The notes under the pieces were generated by a model. The model was not told where the DNA came from. It ran no database searches and worked only from the letters and a program-made list of their open reading frames with translations. Of a DNA stretch of 64,000 nt, positions 2,362 to 26,073 are shown piece after piece. The translations under genes were made by a program, and so were the position numbers. This DNA comes from Collimonas sp. OK607 (GTDB lineage: Bacteria; Pseudomonadota; Gammaproteobacteria; Burkholderiales; Burkholderiaceae_D), in the NCBI RefSeq assembly GCF_900111995.1, contig NZ_FOKF01000006.1:62001-126000 (forward strand). The letters run 5' to 3'. Numbering within the stretch: position 1 is the first letter of the stretch; every line of letters starts with the position of its first letter.

Positions 2362-4164
2362 ATGAAGCGCAGGCAGTTTCTGAAAGGCTCGGCATTTTTT
2401 ACGGTGGTTGCAGCAACGTCTGGAATATTGGGTGCTTGCGGTGGCAGTACCAGTGATGGCGGCGTGGGGGATTTTTCTTTTCCTCAAGGAATTGCCTCCG
2501 GCGATCCGAAAGATAGCAGCGTGGTGTTCTGGGGCCGCGTGGTGCGGACCAACGGCGCCGCCGCTGCCAACCCGATCGCCGTGCGCCTTGAAGTGTCGGC
2601 CGCCTCGGATTTTTCCTCTCTGGCTGCACAAGTCAACCTGAGCGCCATCGCCGACTACGATTTCACGGTGCGCGCCAAAGTAACGCAACTCAAGCCGGAC
2701 ACCGTCTATTACTACCGCTTTACCGCCGGCAGCGACGTCAGCGTAATCGCCCAGACCAAAACCGCGCCGCTCGCGACAGCCAGCAACAGCCAGGTGCGCT
2801 TCGCCTGGTTCACTTGCCAGGACTGGTCGGTTAACCACTGGCAAGCCATGTCGTTGCTGGCGCAGGAAAATTTGGATTTCGTAGTGCATGTCGGCGACTA
2901 CATCTATGAAACCGTGGGCGCCGCATTCCAGGCCGGCGGCGTGGAGCCGGCACACAAGCCGATCACCATACCGGATGGCCTGGCGCACCCCGGCGGCGGC
3001 GTGTATGCCAACACAGTCAACGACTATCGCACGCTGTATCGCACCTATAAGACCGATGCCCGCCTGCAAAGCATTCATCATAAATTCCCGGTGATTGCGA
3101 TCTGGGACGATCATGAATTTTCCGATGACTGCTGGCAGGATCATCAGGTCTACACCAATCAAAACAAACAGGAAACGGCGCGCCGGCGCAGCGCCACCCA
3201 GGCTTGGGCCGAGTACACGCCTATCGATTTCGGCGACCTGTCGTTCGATCTGAACAACACCAGTTACCAGAACATCCGCATCTATCGCGATTTCCGTTTC
3301 GGCCAGCTGATGCATCTGGTGATGACCGACGAACGCCTGTACCGGGACGACCATATCGTCAGCGAGCAATCCGTGGCACTCCAGGCGGGGCACGATCCGG
3401 TCAACGGCGACGATTCGATTGGCTCGCGCTACTTCGTACCGCAACCGGTCCTGCAGCAAATGGAAGCCCAGGAAACCGCCAAATTGGGACGGTCACCGTC
3501 GATACTCGGCCCCACGCAAACGCAATGGTGGAAAGATACGTTGAAAAATTCGGATGCGACCTGGAAAGTGTGGGGCAACGAAATCATGTTGAGCCGCATG
3601 TGGGCCGACCTGACCCCACCGGCCTTGGGCATTCCGCCGCCATACAACCAGTTGTATGTGATCAATTGCGATTCATGGGACGGTTACCCCAGCCACAAGG
3701 CAGAACTGCTGTCTTATCTGAATACGCAAAACATCAAGAATGTGGTGGCCATCACCGGCGATCTGCATGCATTCCAGTGCGGCGTAGTGCGCACCAATCC
3801 AGCCGATCTGAGCAGCACCCCGGTGTTGGTGGATTTTTTGACGGCCGGCATCAGCAGCCAGTCGTTCTACAACTACATCAAATCGGGCGCTGCGGTAGTC
3901 AATCCCCTGCTCGGCGCCCTGGTCCAGACGCCGCAGATTTTCGACAGCCTGCTGAAGGGTTTCAATCCCGACTTCGCCTACGTCGACCACGATGCCCAAG
4001 GCTATGCCTCAGCCACCGTAACCAACGACAGCATTGTGGTGGTGTTCAATAAAGTGAAACCGCTCGCCGCGGATGGCAGTGCGCCGCCGCAGGCTCTGTT
4101 GAAGCGAACCCGTATCACGCTGGCCAAGGGATCGACTACGCCGCAGATTGAAGATAACGTCTGA
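2362..4164 (+). CDS. phoD: PhoD-like alkaline phosphatase/phosphodiesterase, Tat-exported predicted lipoprotein
   Basis: A 600-residue metallophosphoesterase of the PhoD family, which releases phosphate from phosphomono- and diesters outside the cytoplasm. The N-terminus reads KRRQFLKGSA, a twin-arginine signal, followed by a hydrophobic stretch ending in LGAC-G. That is a lipobox, so the protein is probably folded, exported by Tat and lipid-anchored. A fibronectin-like N-terminal domain (about 40-140) precedes the phosphatase domain. Metal-site motifs are VGDYIYE (near 175), IWDDHEFSDD (near 248) and TGDLHAFQ (near 465). GGGGGA-type ribosome binding bases lie just upstream of the ATG. I see no convincing Pho box in the 198-bp upstream gap. 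It converges on ribH. Confidence 0.9.
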   Translation: MKRRQFLKGSAFFTVVAATSGILGACGGSTSDGGVGDFSFPQGIASGDPKDSSVVFWGRVVRTNGAAAANPIAVRLEVSAASDFSSLAAQVNLSAIADYDFTVRAKVTQLKPDTVYYYRFTAGSDVSVIAQTKTAPLATASNSQVRFAWFTCQDWSVNHWQAMSLLAQENLDFVVHVGDYIYETVGAAFQAGGVEPAHKPITIPDGLAHPGGGVYANTVNDYRTLYRTYKTDARLQSIHHKFPVIAIWDDHEFSDDCWQDHQVYTNQNKQETARRRSATQAWAEYTPIDFGDLSFDLNNTSYQNIRIYRDFRFGQLMHLVMTDERLYRDDHIVSEQSVALQAGHDPVNGDDSIGSRYFVPQPVLQQMEAQETAKLGRSPSILGPTQTQWWKDTLKNSDATWKVWGNEIMLSRMWADLTPPALGIPPPYNQLYVINCDSWDGYPSHKAELLSYLNTQNIKNVVAITGDLHAFQCGVVRTNPADLSSTPVLVDFLTAGISSQSFYNYIKSGAAVVNPLLGALVQTPQIFDSLLKGFNPDFAYVDHDAQGYASATVTNDSIVVVFNKVKPLAADGSAPPQALLKRTRITLAKGSTTPQIEDNV

Positions 4165-4225: not shown

Positions 4226-5077
<852 letters not shown>

Positions 5078-17954: not shown

Positions 17955-18524
17955 ATGATCACTATCCCGTCCACTGTCGAGAAACTGCGGCTTAACCTGC
18001 TGACCGTCACCGCTACAGTGATGGTCTATATGCTGGTGTACATGGCCAACGACTGGCTATTCAAGCACATCGAATTTACCCAGGGAATTGCCTGGATCTA
18101 TCTGCCGGCGGGGATACGGCTTATCTGTACTTTGCTATTTGCCGAGGCGGGCGTGCTCGGCATCCTGATCGGCTCAGTGCTGACTTCCAGCCTCTACGCC
18201 CTCTTTCCCGGTGATCCGGTCACCACCATCGGTTACAGCATCATCTCAGCGCTGGCGCCTTATCTTGCCTACAGATTCACATTGCAAGAGATGCGTCTGC
18301 AACGGTCGCTGAGCAATCTGACCACGATGCGCCTGCTGGCCTGCATCCTGTTATACGGGCTCGCCAATCCGCTGTTGCAGCTGGTGTGGTTTGTATTGCG
18401 CGGCGTCTCCTATCATTTCTGGTCGGGCCTGGTCGTGATGTCGATCGGCGACCTGACCGGCTCTCTGATCGTGGTCTATGCAATCAAGCTCCTGCTGTCT
18501 TTCGTTCCGTTGCCGCGCCTTTAA
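17955..18524 (+). CDS. Integral membrane protein resembling a standalone MASE1 domain
   Basis: A 189-residue hydrophobic protein with about five or six membrane segments. The stretch IAWIYLPAGIRLICTLLF followed by GVLGILIGSVLTSSLYALF is typical of MASE1 sensory membrane domains, which normally precede a histidine kinase, GGDEF or other output domain. No output domain follows here: the frame ends at PLPRL and the next gene is 215 bases away. Function unknown. It is divergent from a winged-helix regulator. Confidence 0.65.
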   Translation: MITIPSTVEKLRLNLLTVTATVMVYMLVYMANDWLFKHIEFTQGIAWIYLPAGIRLICTLLFAEAGVLGILIGSVLTSSLYALFPGDPVTTIGYSIISALAPYLAYRFTLQEMRLQRSLSNLTTMRLLACILLYGLANPLLQLVWFVLRGVSYHFWSGLVVMSIGDLTGSLIVVYAIKLLLSFVPLPRL

Positions 18525-18739
18525 GCAAGCCCGGCACACGTAACACGCGACGCGCACAGCGCCCTTTCTCCAAAATTCTCTCGCCGATCTTCTGCTTAAC
18601 TTTTCGTAGCGTCATCACCACATCGCCGCCGATTGTAATACTGCCGAAATAATTCATCGCTATTCTGCCGACAGTTATAGAAATTATAGCGGTTAGCGAA
18701 TTCACGCTATCACCGCGCATCTTTCATCGGGGTAGTGCA

Positions 18740-19147
18740 ATGCGTAGTTGGGACGAACCAAAAAAGCGGAAAGCTCGCGTCGAAATCATTCCTATGATCG
18801 ACGTCATGATGTTTCTACTGGTGTTTTTTGTGCTGATCAGCCTCAACGTCATTCCTGCGCTCGGCATGAAAACGCATTTGCCGACGGCCAGCAGTTCACA
18901 GGATCTGAAACCGCAAAACAAGGCGGTCGTCACACTCGGTCTCAACGACGCATTGCAAGTCGACGGCGTCGACACCAAAATCGGCGAGCTGCCGACGCGC
19001 TTGAATCTGGCAAAGAAGAACGGTGAAAAACTCAACGTCATCGTCAACAGCGATCGTGGAGTCGAAGTGCAGCGGCTGGTGGAAGTGATGGACACGCTGA
19101 AACAGAACGGCTTCGAATCGATCTCCATTGCTACCCGCAAGCCGTGA
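18740..19147 (+). CDS. exbD: ExbD-type biopolymer transport protein
   Basis: A 135-residue ExbD: short basic cytoplasmic start, one membrane helix with the essential aspartate (IIPMIDVMMFLLVFFVLI, Asp at about 21), and a periplasmic domain ending in a RLVEVMDTLKQNGF block. With ExbB it forms the proton channel that energises TonB. It is first of a run of co-directional genes and overlaps tonB by one base (TGATG). The 215-bp gap upstream must hold the promoter; I find no convincing Fur or Pho box in it. Confidence 0.93.
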   Translation: MRSWDEPKKRKARVEIIPMIDVMMFLLVFFVLISLNVIPALGMKTHLPTASSSQDLKPQNKAVVTLGLNDALQVDGVDTKIGELPTRLNLAKKNGEKLNVIVNSDRGVEVQRLVEVMDTLKQNGFESISIATRKP

Positions 19148-19848
19148 TGCAAGCGATGACGACCATGCCGTTCTTCTATCGATTTCGAGATGCGCTGGCA
19201 ACGCTGCCATCGATACTCATACTCGCCATCCTGATCTTTGCCGGCATCCAGAAAGCGACGAAGATTGAAGCGCATACCGAGGATTCGCTGGTGCAGATTG
19301 CGTTGATGGAACCGGAACCTCCGGCGCCGCCCATAACCATACCCACGCCGCCGCCGGCACCGCCGACGTCGCAAGTGGTCAAACCACTGCCGGTACCACT
19401 GATGCAGCCGGTCCGGCAACCGACGCCACCGCAGGCAGTGAGCGCCACACCGGTCAGCAACGCACCTGGCGCAGAGGCAGCGGCCCCGCCAACGCCACCA
19501 AAAGCCATCGCGGCGCCGGTCGCGGCCAAACCGAACAGCGCCAGTGTCGAGGCCGGGTATGTCTCCAAAGTGCGGGCACATCTGAACAGCATCAAGCGCT
19601 ATCCGACCGGCCGCGAGGCCAGCCAGCAGCGTCCGCAAGGCAAGGTCAAGGTCTGGTTCGTGCTGAATCGCGACGGCACCTTGGTGGAGCAAGGGATCGA
19701 TGAATCATCAAACTCGATGCTGCTCGACGAAGTTGCCCGCAAGACCATCAATCGCGCTACTTTTTCCGCCTTTCCCGAATCTAGCTGGACCGGGGAAGCG
19801 ACACATCGATTCAGCGCCGAGCTGGAGTTCATCCCCGGAGCGGGGTAG
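19147..19848 (+). CDS. tonB: TonB energy-transducing protein
   Basis: A 233-residue TonB. One N-terminal membrane helix (LPSILILAILIFAG) is followed by a long Pro/Ala-rich periplasmic spacer (about 55-130) and a C-terminal TonB domain (YVSKVRAHLNSIKRYP, KVKVWFVLNRDGTLVEQGI, ELEFIPG) that contacts receptor TonB boxes. The SxxxH motif of well-studied TonB membrane helices is not visible: the helix has a serine but no histidine. ATG 19147 overlaps the exbD stop; GTG at 19144 is the alternative. It probably serves the receptor encoded immediately downstream. Confidence 0.9.
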   Translation: MQAMTTMPFFYRFRDALATLPSILILAILIFAGIQKATKIEAHTEDSLVQIALMEPEPPAPPITIPTPPPAPPTSQVVKPLPVPLMQPVRQPTPPQAVSATPVSNAPGAEAAAPPTPPKAIAAPVAAKPNSASVEAGYVSKVRAHLNSIKRYPTGREASQQRPQGKVKVWFVLNRDGTLVEQGIDESSNSMLLDEVARKTINRATFSAFPESSWTGEATHRFSAELEFIPGAG

Positions 19849-19933
19849 CGCAACAGCGAGCAGCGGTTTGAATACTTAGCAGCATTAATACTTAATTTTC
19901 ACATCTCATAAAAATCGTACAGGGAGTAATGCT

Positions 19934-22330
19934 ATGCAATTCAAAGTCACCCGGCTGTCACTGCTGATCTCCGGGTTATTTATCGCCGCCAGTCCGCTGG
20001 TTTACGCTGCGGATACATCTGAAGTCGGAAAAGTTACAGTGCAAGGCGATGCCGGCGGCGGCCAGAGCACCGGTTTGATCCAGCAGGAAGAGTCGGCAAA
20101 AGCGCGCAGCTCGGTCAATCGCGACTACATGGACAAGCAAAGCACCACCAGCAATCCGTTCCAGATGATCAACCTGCTGCCAGGCGTAAACAGCTATGAT
20201 AACGACGGCACCGGCCTGTTCGGCGGCAACGTCCGGGTGCGCGGCTTTAACAGCGACCAGCTCGGCTTCACCGTCAATGGCGCGCCAGTCAATGATTCCG
20301 GCAGCTTCGCCGTCTATCCGCAGGAATACACCGATGTGGAAAACCTGTGCGACATCTTCGTCACGCAAGGTTCCACAGATACCGAAGCACCGCACGTTGG
20401 CGCCACCGGCGGCAATATCGGCATGACCATGTGTACGCCGGAAGACCAGCGGCGTTTCCGCACGCAATATACTTTCGGTTCGGACAACCTGTGGAAAGGT
20501 TACGTGCGTCTCGATTCCGGCAAGCTGTTCAACGATCGCTTCAAGTTCTTCATCTCTTATTCCAAAGCTCAGGCAGACAAATTCAAGGGCACCGGCCGCG
20601 CCGACAAGGAACACGTCGATTTCAACAGCAAGCTGGATCTGGGCGGCGGCAGTTTTGTCGATACCGGCTTCATGTACAACTCGACTCTGAACAATAATTA
20701 CCGTTCGCTGACCAAAGCCCAGATCGCTCAATACGGGCCTAACCTGGACTACGGCACTGTGGCGCCGGTACATCAACCGGGCGGCCCTGGCGCACAAAAC
20801 GACTCGACCTACGGCCCAAACGCCGGTATCAATACCGGCAACAAAGACCTGTACTACGGCTACAACCTGAACCCGTTCAAGAACTGGCTTGCCACCATGA
20901 ACGCACACTTCCAGCTGGCGCCGCAATCCAGCGTGGATGTCAATCCATACATGTGGTACGGATTCGGCACTGGCGGCAATCAGTTGCAGACCGTCAGCGA
21001 AGGTAACTCCGGCACGCTGCTGGGCGGCGGCGCTCGCGACGTCAATCACGACGGCGACACCAAGGATACCGTGTTTGCCTATGAAGGCAGCCGCACGCGC
21101 ACCTACCGTCCTGGCGTCACGATCAAGTACAACCAGCAGATCGACAACCACAAACTGATGGTCGGCTATTGGTACGAACGTGCACGTCATCAGCAAACCG
21201 GTCCTTATTCGCCGATCGATAACAACGGCAACGCTGCCGATGTCTGGCTAAACAATCCCGATGCCTGGCTCAAGAACCAAGACGGTTCTTACGTTCAATA
21301 CCGCGACACACTTACCATCAGTACCGGCAAATCAGCTTTCGTGCAAGACAACATCAGCCTGATGCAAGACAAGCTGAACCTGCAGCTCGGCGCGCGTTAT
21401 TCGAGCATAGACCGTGACGTCACCAACAACCCAAGCCAGAGCTCGCCCGGCTTTTATACTGTGCAGAAATCGTATTCCGACCTGCTGCCTAGCCTCGGCA
21501 TTCGTTATCAGCTCGATCAGGCGCAATCGGTATTCTTCAATGCTGCGAAGAACTTCAAGGCGCCGGGCAATTTTTCATTTTTCAATCTGATCTCGGGCGG
21601 CAATTTTGTCAACGGCGTATATACCGGCGGCACTGTGCGCAATGTGCCGGTGGATAAAGAAACTTCCTGGAACTACGATCTCGGCTACCGCTACGCGGCT
21701 GACAAATGGACGTTTTCCGGATCGCTCTACTATGTCGATTACAAAAATCGCATAGCCAGTTCGTTCAACCCCGATACCGGCAACCGCACCGACTACAACG
21801 TCGGCGACTCGACCTCCAAGGGCCTGGAACTGGAATCCGGCTACTCGCTCACCAAGAACCTGAGCCTGTACGGTTCGCTGTCCTATATCAAGAGCAAGAT
21901 GGATAAGGACATGCCTTGGGCAGCCAACTTCAATCTGCCAACCGGTGGCAAAGAGTTTCCGGATACGCCGAACTGGTTGAGCGGCTTGAGCCTGCAGTAC
22001 GCACAAGATAACTGGTATGTATTCGGCCAAGGCAAATACACCGGCAAGCGTTACACCACTTTGGTCAACGACGACAGCCTGGGCGGCTACACGGTGTTCA
22101 ATGCCGGCGCCGGTTATACCTTCCCGTCCACTACCTGGCTGAAGAAACCAACAGTGCGCTTCAACGTCAACAACATCTTTGACAAGCAATACCTGAATCT
22201 GAATGCCGGCAGCGGTAGCCAGTTCACCAGTAATGCGGTCGCGATTAACAGCAGCGCGCCGGCAGTTCCGCCGACTTTCTACGTCAGTGCGCCGCGTACT
22301 TTTAGCGTCACTCTGATCGCGGATTTCTAA
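19934..22330 (+). CDS. TonB-dependent outer-membrane receptor
   Basis: A 798-residue receptor with signal peptide (cut after VYAA), a TonB-box-like segment near the mature N-terminus (EVGKVTVQG), a plug domain and a 22-strand barrel ending in Phe (TLIADF). Plug landmarks are MINLLPGVNSYDND, VRVRGFNSDQLGFTVNGAPVNDSG and GATGGNIGM. Two plug cysteines (ENLCDIF, GMTMCTPED) flank the apical loop and could form a disulfide. No FecA-type N-terminal signalling domain is present. The ligand cannot be read from sequence; siderophore, heme, B12 or another ligand are all possible, and the co-encoded nucleotidase and PLD enzyme hint at a phosphate- or nucleotide-linked one. Confidence 0.92.
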   Translation: MQFKVTRLSLLISGLFIAASPLVYAADTSEVGKVTVQGDAGGGQSTGLIQQEESAKARSSVNRDYMDKQSTTSNPFQMINLLPGVNSYDNDGTGLFGGNVRVRGFNSDQLGFTVNGAPVNDSGSFAVYPQEYTDVENLCDIFVTQGSTDTEAPHVGATGGNIGMTMCTPEDQRRFRTQYTFGSDNLWKGYVRLDSGKLFNDRFKFFISYSKAQADKFKGTGRADKEHVDFNSKLDLGGGSFVDTGFMYNSTLNNNYRSLTKAQIAQYGPNLDYGTVAPVHQPGGPGAQNDSTYGPNAGINTGNKDLYYGYNLNPFKNWLATMNAHFQLAPQSSVDVNPYMWYGFGTGGNQLQTVSEGNSGTLLGGGARDVNHDGDTKDTVFAYEGSRTRTYRPGVTIKYNQQIDNHKLMVGYWYERARHQQTGPYSPIDNNGNAADVWLNNPDAWLKNQDGSYVQYRDTLTISTGKSAFVQDNISLMQDKLNLQLGARYSSIDRDVTNNPSQSSPGFYTVQKSYSDLLPSLGIRYQLDQAQSVFFNAAKNFKAPGNFSFFNLISGGNFVNGVYTGGTVRNVPVDKETSWNYDLGYRYAADKWTFSGSLYYVDYKNRIASSFNPDTGNRTDYNVGDSTSKGLELESGYSLTKNLSLYGSLSYIKSKMDKDMPWAANFNLPTGGKEFPDTPNWLSGLSLQYAQDNWYVFGQGKYTGKRYTTLVNDDSLGGYTVFNAGAGYTFPSTTWLKKPTVRFNVNNIFDKQYLNLNAGSGSQFTSNAVAINSSAPAVPPTFYVSAPRTFSVTLIADF

Positions 22331-22364
22331 TCCGGCAGTAGTAATTCTCAGACTGCAATCCATG

Positions 22365-22393
22365 GCGGCGGATCTAGTACCAGGATCCGCCGC
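22365..22393 (+). terminator. Intercistronic hairpin between receptor gene and exbB
   Basis: Perfect 10-bp stem gcggcggatc (22365-22374) / gatccgccgc (22384-22393) with a 9-base loop, no T run. It may protect the receptor mRNA or reduce downstream transcription rather than stop it completely. Confidence 0.5.
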
Positions 22394-22429
22394 TGCAACA
22401 AACGCGCATTCGTGCGCAGAGAGGTCACC

Positions 22430-23074
22430 ATGAACATGCAATTATTCCACGAACTCGCTTTCTATCTGATGTACGCCTGTGCCGCCCTGGCGATATTCGT
22501 GATTGTCGAACGCGGACTGTTTTTCAACTACACTTTGCGCCAGGCAATCGGCCTGGAAAAAGCCATGACGCACGCTGTGCAGCATGTGCAAGAGCTGCCG
22601 ACGGCGCTGACAGCCCGCTCCAGCTTGCCGCTGACGCTGGTGTCCGACATCCTCGCGGAAAAACATCAGCTGACCAGTGAAAAAGACCTGGAAGATTTCA
22701 GTGAATCGGTGTACATCGCCAACCGCGGCGAAGTGCAGCACCGGTTGTGGATTCTTGACACCATCGTCACCGCCGCCCCCCTGCTCGGCCTGCTCGGCAC
22801 GATTTTGGGTATCATCGATACTTTCAAAGCACTGGCGGTATCCGGCGTATCCGATCCGGGCCAGGTGTCGCAGGGCATAGGCACCGCTTTGTACGCGACC
22901 GCCCTGGGCATCGGCATCGCGGTGGTCGGCATGTTTTTCTTTAATATGTTCCAGGAACGGATCGAGCGCATCAACGATCATTTGAAAGTATTGATGTTGC
23001 GTGCCTGCGTCGGCCGTGTGGTTGGCAATGATGTGAAAGCGCCGGTGGAACCCGGTAAATTGCATCTCGCCTGA
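22430..23074 (+). CDS. exbB: ExbB/TolQ/MotA-type proton channel protein
   Basis: A 214-residue three-helix proton-channel protein. Helix 1 is in the first 35 residues. After a long cytoplasmic loop (to about 110) come helices 2 and 3 (IVTAAPLLGLLGTILGIIDTF; GIGTALYATALGIGIAVVGMFF) with the conserved Pro, Thr and small-residue patterns of ExbB. It pairs with ExbD and TonB encoded upstream, but is separated from them by the receptor gene. AGAGAGGT lies 4-5 bases before the ATG at 22430. Confidence 0.9.
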   Translation: MNMQLFHELAFYLMYACAALAIFVIVERGLFFNYTLRQAIGLEKAMTHAVQHVQELPTALTARSSLPLTLVSDILAEKHQLTSEKDLEDFSESVYIANRGEVQHRLWILDTIVTAAPLLGLLGTILGIIDTFKALAVSGVSDPGQVSQGIGTALYATALGIGIAVVGMFFFNMFQERIERINDHLKVLMLRACVGRVVGNDVKAPVEPGKLHLA

Positions 23075-23096
23075 CCAGGATTGAATCGAGGACGGC

Positions 23097-24827
23097 TTGA
23101 AACATATACGTGCAAAATCTGTAATCGGGACCGGGCTGCTGTGCGGGTTGGCGCTTGCATTCCTGAGTTCGTGTACCAGCTTGGAAAACGCAACGCCAGG
23201 TGCGCCGATTGAAATCAATCTGGTTGCGATTAACGACTTGCACGGTCACCTGGAAGCGGAAACCAGGAGTTATGCCAGCATCACCGACGCCGCGCCGCAC
23301 AAGTTCAAGGTCGGCGGTATAGATACCATAGGCGGTGCGCTCAAAACATGGCGCGCCGAGGATCCGCAGCTGCTGCTGGTCGGTGCCGGCGATTTGATTG
23401 GCGCCAGCCCTGCCCTGTCATCAATCTGGGCCGATGAACCGACCATCGACGCACTCAACCAGCTAGGCATGCGTGTCAGCTCGGTCGGCAATCATGAATT
23501 CGACCAAGGTAGTACCGAACTGCTGCGTTATCAGCATGGCGGCTGCAATTCAAACCGCCCCGACAAGGCGTGTCAATTTGAAGATCATTTCGCTGGCGCT
23601 AAATTTCCCTACCTGGCTGCCAACGTCATCAACAAGAGCAGTGGCCGGCCATTGCTGGCGCCCTATCGTATTGAACAGGTGCGCGGTATCAAGATTGCTT
23701 TCATCGGCGCGGTGGTGCGCGGCACGGAAAAAATGGTATCTGCCGACGGCATAAGCAATGTCAGCTTCATCGACGAGGCCGACGCCATCAACCGCTGGGT
23801 CCCTGAGATCAAGGCGCAAGGCGTCAGCGCCATCGTGGTTTTGATCCATCAAGGTGGCGAAACCCCCGAACCTTTCGACATGGCGGCATGCACTCAGTTG
23901 CGCGGCCCTATCGTCGATATCGTCAAGCGTCTCGCCCCTGCGATCAGGCTGGTCATCAGCGCGCATACCCATAACGGCTATACCTGCCAGGTCGACGGCC
24001 GCACTGTGACGCAGGGTGAATCGTTCGGTCACATGCTGACGCGGATCAAGCTCACCATCGATCCGCGCATCGCCGATCTGCCGCAAAAAATTACGGCGAT
24101 CCAGGCCCGGAACGTATTGATGGACAACCAGCGCTTCGCGCCCGATCCTTCCTTGTCGACGTTCCTGCAAGCGTTAAAGGCGCGTAGCGACGAAGTGCTG
24201 GCACAACCGATTGCCCGCATCGCAGTTGCTCGCATCGATAACAAGATCAACGACGCCGGCGAATCGCCTCTGGGCGACGTCGTCGCCGATTCGCAACTGG
24301 CGGCGACGCGCAAGCTCGGCGCCCAAATTGCCATGACCAATCACAAGAGCATTCGCGAGAGTCTGGACAGCGGTGCGGGCGGCGCCAACTATGCTCAGGT
24401 CGCCGCCACCACACCCTACAGCAATACGCTGATCCTGTTGACGCTCACCGGCAGCCAGTTGCTTGCCTTGCTGGAGCAGCAAAGCTGGCTGGATCAGGAC
24501 CGCCCCGGCGGCCGTATCATGCTGCAAGTTTCGCGCGGCCTGAGTTATCGCTGGGATGCCAGGCGGCCGCTGGGACAGCGGGTGCTGCCCGGCAGCGTCA
24601 AGCTGAACGGCGTCGCTGTGAATCCACATGGACAGTACAGGCTTAGCGTCAACAGCTTTATCTCTCAGGGCGGCGACGGCTTCAGCCTGTTGACGCAAGG
24701 CGCCGACCGCGTCGATACCGGCATTAACGACCTGGATGCGTTAAGCCACTACCTGATCGCCAGCGAACGTGACGGCCACCCGGCCGGCAGTACACAAGCA
24801 GCCGGACGCATCGTCCGCGTGCATTGA
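23097..24827 (+). CDS. Lipoprotein 5'-nucleotidase / 2',3'-cyclic phosphodiesterase family enzyme
   Basis: A 576-residue member of the UshA/CpdB/YfkN metallophosphatase family, which removes phosphate from nucleotides outside the cytoplasm. The signal sequence ends in LSSC, a lipobox. Metal ligands are visible in order: NDLHGHLE (near 44), GAGDLIGASP, GNHEFDQG and VISAHTHNG. The C-terminal nucleotide-binding domain has the LTLTGSQLLALLEQQ and NSFISQGGDGF motifs. The insert between 145 and 165 contains two cysteines (GGCN, KACQF). Start is TTG 23097 with GAGG 5 bases upstream. Members can act on 5'-NMP, 3'-NMP or cyclic nucleotides, and the specificity is not evident. It follows exbB by 22 bases, so it is probably in the same operon. 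Confidence 0.9.
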   Translation: MKHIRAKSVIGTGLLCGLALAFLSSCTSLENATPGAPIEINLVAINDLHGHLEAETRSYASITDAAPHKFKVGGIDTIGGALKTWRAEDPQLLLVGAGDLIGASPALSSIWADEPTIDALNQLGMRVSSVGNHEFDQGSTELLRYQHGGCNSNRPDKACQFEDHFAGAKFPYLAANVINKSSGRPLLAPYRIEQVRGIKIAFIGAVVRGTEKMVSADGISNVSFIDEADAINRWVPEIKAQGVSAIVVLIHQGGETPEPFDMAACTQLRGPIVDIVKRLAPAIRLVISAHTHNGYTCQVDGRTVTQGESFGHMLTRIKLTIDPRIADLPQKITAIQARNVLMDNQRFAPDPSLSTFLQALKARSDEVLAQPIARIAVARIDNKINDAGESPLGDVVADSQLAATRKLGAQIAMTNHKSIRESLDSGAGGANYAQVAATTPYSNTLILLTLTGSQLLALLEQQSWLDQDRPGGRIMLQVSRGLSYRWDARRPLGQRVLPGSVKLNGVAVNPHGQYRLSVNSFISQGGDGFSLLTQGADRVDTGINDLDALSHYLIASERDGHPAGSTQAAGRIVRVH

Positions 24828-24855
24828 CCTCAACTGAAAATTTTTCGGAAGCACC

Positions 24856-26073
24856 ATGCGCAAATTGATCGCTCTGATAGCAATGCTGCTCGGCTGCACC
24901 GGCAGCGTCCATGCCGAATTCAGCATCCCCGGTTATGAACTGGTGCACACCGCTCCGGTGGAAACAACCTTGGCAACACCCGATTTGCGGGAACCGCTGC
25001 AAGTCTGGAGCGAGATGTTCGACGCCGCCAGACAGCAGATCGTGCTGGGCCAGTTTTATGTGGCGAGCCAGCCTGGCGCGGCGTTCGAGCAGGTGATAGC
25101 GCGACTCGCCGCCGCCGGCTCGCGCGGCGTCAAGATCCGTTTTCTGATGGAGGAAAAAGGAAAATTCGCCTCCGACATGCCAACCATCGAACGGCTCAGG
25201 CAGATTCCCAATCTGGAATTCCGTTATCTCGATTATTCCAGGTTGACGGGCAACGGCATCATCCACGCAAAATATATGGTGGTCGATGGCAGCACCGCCT
25301 ACGTTGGCAGCCAGAATTTCGACTGGCGCTCGTTTGCCCACATCCATGAGACTGGCCTGCGCATCACTGACGCCGTGGTTGTCAGCCAGCTGCAGAATAT
25401 TTTCGAACACGACTGGCATGCGCAGGAGCTGATTGCACAGGGCAAGGAAGTGCCAAAACTCAATCAGAGCGTGGTTGCCGCCAATGACCGGCAAGCGACA
25501 TTCCTGGTGGCTAGCCCGAACGCTTTTAACCCGCCCGGCGTCGGCGATTCGGAGACTGAATTACCGAAGCTGTTGGCGGCGGCCAAATCCGAAGTCCGGA
25601 TCCAGTTGCTTGACTACGCGCCCTTGAGCTACGGTCTGAATCGCACACGCCCTTATTATGCGGTGATTGATAATGCGATCCGCGCGGCATTGGCGCGCGG
25701 CGTCAAGGTCAAGCTGATGGTATCGAACTGGAATACCGAAAAACCGGCGATCGCTTATTTGAAAAGCCTGGCGCTGCTGCCTGGCATGGAAATCAGGATC
25801 GTCACGTTGCCGCAGGCCAGCACCGGCTTCATTCCTTTCGCCCGCGTAATCCACAGCAAGACCATGGCTATCGACGGCCAGCTGGCATGGATCGGCACCA
25901 GTAACTGGAGCGGCGGCTATCTGGATAATTCGCGCAATCTGGAAATCGTGCTGCGCAATGAGAAGATGGCGCAACGGATCGCCGAGTTACACCAGCAAAC
26001 CTGGGACTCCGCATATGCGCAGCCGATCGATGTGATGAAGGATTACCCCAAGCCGGTGAAGGGCAAGGAATAA
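24856..26073 (+). CDS. Secreted phospholipase-D superfamily protein, PLD3/PLD4/K4-like
   Basis: A 405-residue protein with a signal peptide (MRKLIALIAMLLGCTGSVHA) and two HKD motifs. The first is HAKYMVVDGSTAYVGSQNFD, followed by WRSF (about 137-160). The second is HSKTMAIDGQLAWIGTSNWS (about 336-355). Around them the pattern YYAVIDNAIRAALARGVKVK, then SNW, then P and the ARVIHSK lead-in matches the PLD3/PLD4 and poxvirus K4 branch more than classical phospholipase D or cardiolipin synthase. Mammalian PLD3/PLD4 are 5'-to-3' exonucleases, so a secreted nuclease is a reasonable guess. It lies 28 bases after the nucleotidase gene. Alternatives are phospholipase or transphosphatidylase. Confidence 0.87.
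   Translation: MRKLIALIAMLLGCTGSVHAEFSIPGYELVHTAPVETTLATPDLREPLQVWSEMFDAARQQIVLGQFYVASQPGAAFEQVIARLAAAGSRGVKIRFLMEEKGKFASDMPTIERLRQIPNLEFRYLDYSRLTGNGIIHAKYMVVDGSTAYVGSQNFDWRSFAHIHETGLRITDAVVVSQLQNIFEHDWHAQELIAQGKEVPKLNQSVVAANDRQATFLVASPNAFNPPGVGDSETELPKLLAAAKSEVRIQLLDYAPLSYGLNRTRPYYAVIDNAIRAALARGVKVKLMVSNWNTEKPAIAYLKSLALLPGMEIRIVTLPQASTGFIPFARVIHSKTMAIDGQLAWIGTSNWSGGYLDNSRNLEIVLRNEKMAQRIAELHQQTWDSAYAQPIDVMKDYPKPVKGKE

Follow-up and report, generated by a model that had tools for sequence, protein, structure and literature searches.

A recurrent TonB-dependent receptor locus with a PLD3/PLD4-like protein in Collimonas and relatives, a probable system for scavenging nucleic acid or nucleotides

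In a 64,000-nucleotide stretch of the genome of Collimonas sp. OK607 (referred to here as the window), six tightly spaced open reading frames on the + strand at 18740-26073 encode a complete TonB-ExbB-ExbD uptake set, a lipoprotein 5'-nucleotidase and a phospholipase D (PLD) family protein that resembles mammalian PLD3 and PLD4. The uptake set consists of a receptor with plug and barrel domains, TonB, ExbB and ExbD, all recognized by Pfam. The locus probably functions in nutrient scavenging of nucleic acid or nucleotides. The receptor, driven by its own ExbB-ExbD-TonB complex, would import a nucleic-acid-derived molecule, most likely a nucleotide or a short oligonucleotide, whose size or low concentration rules out entry through porins. 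The exported PLD protein would cut single-stranded nucleic acid via a phosphohistidine, like PLD3, and the nucleotidase lipoprotein, where present, would remove phosphate. In relatives of the Massilia/Janthinobacterium type an S1/P1 nuclease and an adenosine deaminase would lengthen the degradation chain. Because nucleosides need no TonB and TonB power suggests a larger cargo, a selfish order, in which import precedes periplasmic digestion, is slightly preferred over digestion outside the cell.

The conservation of the locus was assessed from 109 loci containing a relative of the window PLD, which were gathered from 60 of 98 matching family genomes, a scan of genome contigs (46 loci) and three of five plasmid matches. 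They comprise 87 distinct PLD genes (60 from family genomes, 24 from the contig scan and three from plasmids), with the window itself outside the 87. A gene counted as present when tblastn matched it at 1e-8 within set distances and on the same strand. A class sample of 369 genomes yielded a PLD relative (E<=1e-40) in two, including the Collimonas sp. OK607 genome itself; Serratia itself lay outside the searches. Two arrangements were found, each in 37 of the 87 distinct loci. The exb-type, known from Oxalobacteraceae, Pseudomonas and a Yersiniaceae plasmid, has the order exbD-tonB-receptor-exbB-PLD in 27 loci, including three from Pseudomonas and the plasmid of Chimaeribacter (Yersiniaceae), and exbD-tonB-receptor-exbB-nucleotidase-PLD in ten; the window is of the latter kind. 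The ADA-type has the order adenosine deaminase (ADA)-receptor-nucleotidase-PLD-S1/P1 nuclease. Two further loci are partial (nucleotidase-PLD, one of them with S1/P1), both being short on the 5' side. In total, the partners of the 87 PLD genes are a receptor in 74 loci, a nucleotidase in 49, an S1/P1 nuclease in 38, an adenosine deaminase in 37 and exbD in 37. Since 74 of the 87 distinct loci hold receptor and PLD in one cluster, their grouping is not due to chance, and the conservation of the receptor with the nucleotidase and PLD genes, on which the original prediction depended, was thus found. The exact six-gene set was rejected as a conserved unit, as 27 of the 37 exb-type loci have no nucleotidase, and of 22 genomes searched at E<=1e-20, ten contain a nucleotidase relative and 12, four Collimonas genomes included, contain none in the whole genome. 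The nucleotidase is an accessory part of the locus.

The S1/P1 nuclease and adenosine deaminase of the sister loci point to nucleic acid or nucleotides as the substrate. Their assignment was checked with Pfam on one protein each from ADA-type loci (S1-P1_nuclease, 1.3e-26; A_deaminase, 1.9e-23). All three Pseudomonas loci have a Pfam-confirmed PhoD phosphatase gene that is divergent from the cluster. Together with the neighbours of the receptor itself, described below, the nuclease and the deaminase make nucleic acid a much stronger interpretation than the window alone allowed.

In a tree of the PLD proteins (88 rows, with loci L066 and L159 dropped), PLD3 forms a very long branch, and the tree is therefore informative inside the bacterial group only. 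The ADA-type rows and the two partial rows cluster together (100/98). Enterobacterales, Pseudomonas and Oxalobacteraceae all have the exb-type arrangement, and the nucleotidase is scattered among the exb-type rows. A mobile origin of the locus is possible, because one exb-type copy is located on a plasmid. Some individual loci differ in their content. The PLD relative of L066, from a complete Collimonas genome (G002), is split into two overlapping pieces in different frames, and the gene looks broken. In L082 and L087 the S1/P1 gene is followed by NudK-like and DeoR-like genes (assigned by eye), relatives of which were found in 12 and 16 of the 37 ADA-type loci. In the Undibacterium-type locus L078, the PLD gene lies near COG0523-like GTPase, dihydroorotase-like and ATP-binding cassette transporter genes (by eye) with a different receptor downstream, and in L170, on a Sphingomonas plasmid, it adjoins prolyl oligopeptidase genes, with annotated GTP-binding proteins and a transcriptional repressor nearby. 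Both L078 and L170 possibly reflect a metal-shortage setting for a metal-free enzyme.

The receptor was also followed independently of the PLD. Of 294 family genomes, 94 contain a relative of the window receptor at E<=1e-90, and 42 of these 94 lack a PLD relative at E<=1e-40. Twenty receptor-relative loci were sampled: 17 from these 42 genomes, two Collimonas paralogs from genomes with PLD, and one from an Undibacterium that carries its PLD elsewhere. The receptor is adjoined by a nucleotidase in 15 of them (in L189 on the opposite strand), by S1/P1 in six and by a deaminase in three; a nucleotidase or S1/P1 gene adjoins it in 16 of the 20 loci. As this is the case in 15 of the 17 PLD-free genomes, the receptor clade is linked to nucleotide enzymes irrespective of PLD. 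Of the four loci with neither enzyme, L186, L187 and L188 are paralogous exbD-tonB-receptor-exbB clusters with complete exbD-tonB-exbB sets, a receptor 44-48% identical and no nucleotide enzymes, and L185 holds tonB and exbB at a contig edge. The receptors of L186-L188 are possibly of the same kind with a different substrate. In the ADA-type loci, 10 of 37 receptors belong to the clade of the window receptor with about 40% identity, and the other 27 are of a larger OMP_b-brl_4/carboxypeptidase-regulatory type; function seems to be retained while the receptor is swapped between loci. In Pseudomonas the receptor is 34% identical to that of the window.

The PLD protein of the window was predicted to resemble PLD3 and PLD4, and the comparison with solved proteins confirmed this. 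Its closest match is SpPLD of Serratia plymuthica (7e0m, 7.9e-162; 63% identity over 384 residues), followed by PLD3 (8.7e-33), a poxvirus nicking-joining enzyme (5.5e-31) and PLD4 (1.2e-29), whereas the match to Streptomyces phospholipase D is near noise (6.1e-4 to 3.6e-3). In phmmer the protein scored 117 bits with PLD3 compared to 22 bits with Streptomyces PLD. Mouse PLD3 shares 31% identity over 314 columns, and the PLD of Collimonas sp. OK307 is 97% identical. The two HKD motifs of the window PLD are formed by H137/K139/D144 and H333/K335/D340; these residues as well as G151, S152, N154, G347, T348 and N350 do not vary among the 27 aligned relatives. In the accessible text on the PLD3 structure with single-stranded DNA, the phosphate is bound by His201, Lys203, Asn218, His416, Lys418 and Asn432, Tyr411 stacks a base and the contacts of Asp220 are water-mediated (PMC10783504). 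The counterparts in the window PLD are H137, K139, N154, H333, K335 and N350, and D156 in place of Asp220, which is likewise invariant in all 27 relatives. The position of Tyr411 is occupied by F328 (F in 24 and Y in three of the 27). The first motif reads GSQN and thus has GS instead of the GG that, according to the available part of the SpPLD paper, characterizes Streptomyces and human PLDs (PMC8004604). The N-terminus appears signal-peptide-like, as judged by eye alone and not by a predictor. An AlphaFold2 model (mean predicted local distance difference test score 87) was compared with known structures using Foldseek and gave template modelling (TM) scores of 0.92 for SpPLD, about 0.8 for PLD3/PLD4, 0.75-0.77 for poxvirus F13 and 0.55-0.59 for Streptomyces PLD. 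In both sequence and fold, PLD3/PLD4 are therefore nearer relatives of the window PLD than phospholipases of the Streptomyces type or human PLD1/2, and a nuclease is the favoured reading.

The prediction of a lipoprotein 5'-nucleotidase was likewise sound. The protein has both domains of the UshA/CD73 family, a lipobox (LSSC, Cys26) and the metal motifs DLHG, GNHE and HTH. Among solved proteins its closest matches are a nucleotidase (4.4e-40) and a 5'-nucleotidase (2.5e-37); it scores below every NCBIfam equivalog cut-off.

Regulation was analyzed by scoring tandem 11-base TGTCAT repeats as Pho-box-like (out of 18, threshold 13). Before the receptor gene, 17 of 37 ADA-type loci reach 13 and 20 stay below, compared to 2 of 740 random windows, although the loci are related and their independence is thus overstated. 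Before the deaminase gene, one of 37 regions reaches 13. The sampled receptor-relative loci reach it in 7 of 20 cases versus 8 of 400 controls, with weaker-looking repeats. Phosphate starvation probably controls the Massilia/Janthinobacterium-type relatives that carry S1/P1 and deaminase. Before exbD, one of 37 exb-type loci reaches 13. In the window promoter no Pho box was found (score 10; p 0.5 and 0.64 against shuffles), and canonical Pho-box control of the window was rejected. The pstS region of the same genome has such a box and scores 13. A block conserved among Oxalobacteraceae exb-type loci precedes exbD (Table 1). Its left half has one site in the genome at <=3 mismatches, and its palindrome has one exact site, here, and one other with two mismatches, versus 8 and 7 for the reversed control. 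A wider regulon for this block was rejected on account of the single site and of the palindrome being rarer than its reversed control. An RNA element before exbD was also rejected, as Rfam returned solely a distant flavin mononucleotide (FMN) riboswitch (RF00050, 105.6 bits; window 4916-5069, - strand).

Table 1. Features of the Collimonas sp. OK607 locus and its upstream region, in window coordinates.
Feature	Position	Strand	Support and remarks
exbD	18740..19147	+	PF02472 2.2e-29 (Pfam)
tonB	19144..19848	+	PF03544 (TonB_C) 1.3e-8; TIGR01352 6e-9
TonB-dependent receptor	19934..22330	+	PF00593 (TonB_dep_Rec_b-barrel) 1.6e-47; PF07715 (Plug) 1.5e-11
exbB	22412..23074	+	PF01618 (MotA_ExbB) 1.2e-25
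Lipoprotein 5'-nucleotidase, UshA/CD73 family, accessory	23097..24827	+	PF02872 (5_nucleotid_C) 2.7e-32; PF00149 (Metallophos) 1.1e-6; TTG start
Two-HKD PLD-family protein, PLD3/PLD4-like, probable nuclease	24856..26073	+	PLDc_2 1.4e-38, two stretches
MASE1-like membrane protein, conserved upstream neighbour	17955..18524	+	PF05231 4.5e-6, below cut-off
Conserved block before exbD, probable promoter/operator; holds GTTATAGAAATTATAGC; GYTATARAAAYTATAGC palindrome	18633..18693	+	Alignment of 9 loci

The open frames and Pfam assignments agree with the original prediction of six genes on one strand with gaps of 100 bases or less; the gaps are, in order, -4, 85, 81, 22 and 28 bases. An in-frame ATG lies 18 bases inside the listed exbB frame and is a possible true start of translation. 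The MASE1-like neighbour has relatives in 32 of the 37 exb-type loci; it was not found in those of Pseudomonas and Chimaeribacter and in one Glaciimonas locus. An exported PhoD-like phosphatase (by eye) is encoded at 2362-4164, about 16 kb upstream of the cluster.

Three other explanations were weighed against the scavenging of nucleic acid or nucleotides. Collimonas feeds on fungi, and the locus might be directed at phospholipids, with PLD hydrolyzing host or fungal phospholipids for scavenging or attack and a resulting head group or lyso-lipid entering through the receptor. This is unlikely. Phospholipids would agree with the deposition of SpPLD as a phospholipase D and the speculation of its authors about a role in plant defence (accessible text of PMC8004604), with a Collimonas genome paper whose available part lists PF00614 proteins under phospholipases and speculates about the membranes of fungi (PMC4690342), and with the similar fold of F13, a phospholipase. 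However, the first motif carries GS and not GG, the SpPLD authors themselves see a positive loop and a short nuclease-like gate loop and ask about nucleic-acid hydrolysis (same text, PMC8004604), the cardiolipin-synthase-like paralogs of the same genome are just 20-23% identical, and the partners in the sister loci work on nucleic acid or nucleotides, not on lipids. Uptake of a different phosphodiester or nucleotide conjugate, such as a nucleotide sugar, NAD, a dinucleotide or a nucleoside antibiotic, with PLD opening a small phosphodiester, is improbable as well. UshA-type 5'-nucleotidases act on nucleotide sugars, Undibacterium-type loci pair the nucleotidase with the receptor in the absence of PLD, and exb-type loci contain no canonical DNase; but an S1/P1 nuclease, whose substrate is single-stranded nucleic acid, is present in 38 of the 87 distinct loci.

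It is very unlikely that the locus serves a siderophore or metal receptor, with enzymes that came along by coincidence or act as substitutes under metal shortage. The window receptor matches siderophore-receptor models, although it stays below the cut-off of every NCBIfam model matched (for TIGR01783, 141.3 vs 223.5 bits), and its closest folds are PqqU/YncD and FecA at 16-17% identity, with FhuA among the near ones, though PqqU ranks first. The GTPase genes near PLD in Undibacterium, and the GTP-binding proteins and repressor near it on the Sphingomonas plasmid, would also suit a metal function. Iron or zinc control was nevertheless rejected, because Fur and Zur sites did not exceed shuffled levels upstream of the loci (0 and 0 of 37 exb-type regions, 0 and 1 of 27 ADA-type regions). 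The link with nucleotide enzymes, which recurs across loci, also speaks against a metal receptor locus.

Several observations weigh against the scavenging of nucleic acid or nucleotides itself. Nuclease activity has been shown by nobody for the bacterial PLD clade, which has no member of known activity, and SpPLD bears the name of a phospholipase. The expectation that the window PLD would not group with phospholipases held in that its sequence and fold are nearer to PLD3/PLD4; it was weakened by F13, which in the modelled fold is almost as similar. All partners are missing from eleven of the 87 distinct PLD loci; in Undibacterium and on a Sphingomonas plasmid, PLD is found amid metal-homeostasis and peptidase genes. 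The receptor clade is not constant, given the OMP_b-brl_4 type in 27 of 37 ADA-type loci; no nucleotidase or S1/P1 was found in 4 of the 20 sampled receptor loci (L185-L188); and the window promoter lacks a Pho box. In addition, a 5'-nucleotidase is mismatched to 3'-nucleotides, the products of PLD3-type enzymes. S1/P1 enzymes have 3'-nucleotidase activity, and the S1/P1 enzyme of ADA-type loci could use such products; no S1/P1 gene was found elsewhere in the Collimonas sp. OK607 genome. Thus, the originally predicted scavenging by PLD, nucleotidase and TonB stands in part: the S1/P1 and deaminase partners fit nucleic acid, but the enzyme chain alone does not fit the window genome, because 3'-nucleotides are not a substrate of the 5'-nucleotidase and this genome lacks S1/P1.

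Apart from porins and nucleoside channels, little is known of how phosphorus and nitrogen from nucleic acids cross the outer membrane of Gram-negative bacteria. The comparative data single out one receptor clade and a small set of enzymes. A more far-reaching proposal, which we regard as tentative, is that these receptors form a new TonB-dependent family for nucleic-acid fragments (oligonucleotides or nucleotides) that has spread through Oxalobacteraceae and is distantly related to receptors in Pseudomonas and Enterobacterales. Each receptor would come with its own selection from PLD3-like exonuclease, 5'-nucleotidase, S1/P1 nuclease and adenosine deaminase. Such loci would be a counterpart of polysaccharide utilization loci, with a bacterial branch of PLD3/PLD4 as the enzyme. 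Should the bacterial PLDs prove to be exonucleases, bacteria would have a nutritional counterpart of the lysosomal PLD3/PLD4 activity.

In the open literature no paper covering four of the five gene-set terms was found; subscription literature was mostly outside the scope of this search, and the result is not proof of novelty. The rus locus of Bacteroides thetaiotaomicron is a SusCD-type locus for ribose and nucleoside scavenging, and thus links TonB-type outer-membrane uptake to nucleoside use; it differs from the window locus in phylum, receptor kind and enzymes. The available text of a multi-omics paper on Collimonas pratensis mentions exbB/exbD with siderophore transport and offers nothing that could be linked to this locus (PMC12542777). 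SpPLD, from Serratia plymuthica AS9 (PDB 7E0M), shares with the window PLD its close similarity in sequence and model, two HKD motifs with GS/GT and secretion, but is known, going by the accessible part of its paper, from its structure only: no activity assay was found there, and the conclusions ask whether nucleic acid is hydrolyzed (PMC8004604). That structure now gains a genomic context and a likely answer to this question, and Chimaeribacter, which is related to Serratia, carries exbD-tonB-receptor-exbB-PLD on a plasmid. Mammalian PLD3/PLD4 resemble the window PLD in both motifs, in the equivalents of N218, D220 and N432, in the aromatic residue at the place of Tyr411 and in overall fold, and their metal-free chemistry is also expected in the window PLD. 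The latter differs in its low overall identity, in a second motif that is HKD and not HKE, and in being exported without a membrane anchor. The window nucleotidase has the domains and metal motifs of the UshA/CD73 family, but is a lipoprotein tied to a TonB receptor operon.

The nearest described idea to the window locus, judged from the available text, are the Pus systems of Flavobacterium johnsoniae, in which TonB-dependent uptake genes induced by phosphate depletion are clustered with phosphodiesterases and phosphatases (PMC8115612). The clustering of outer-membrane uptake genes with enzymes of this sort is shared by the window locus. Unlike the window locus, Pus systems belong to Bacteroidetes and use SusCD-type pairs, their substrate is not nucleic-acid-specific, and neither a PLD3-like protein nor a dedicated exbB-exbD-tonB set is seen in that text. 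The parts of the window locus are ordinary; their combination is recurrent and little described.

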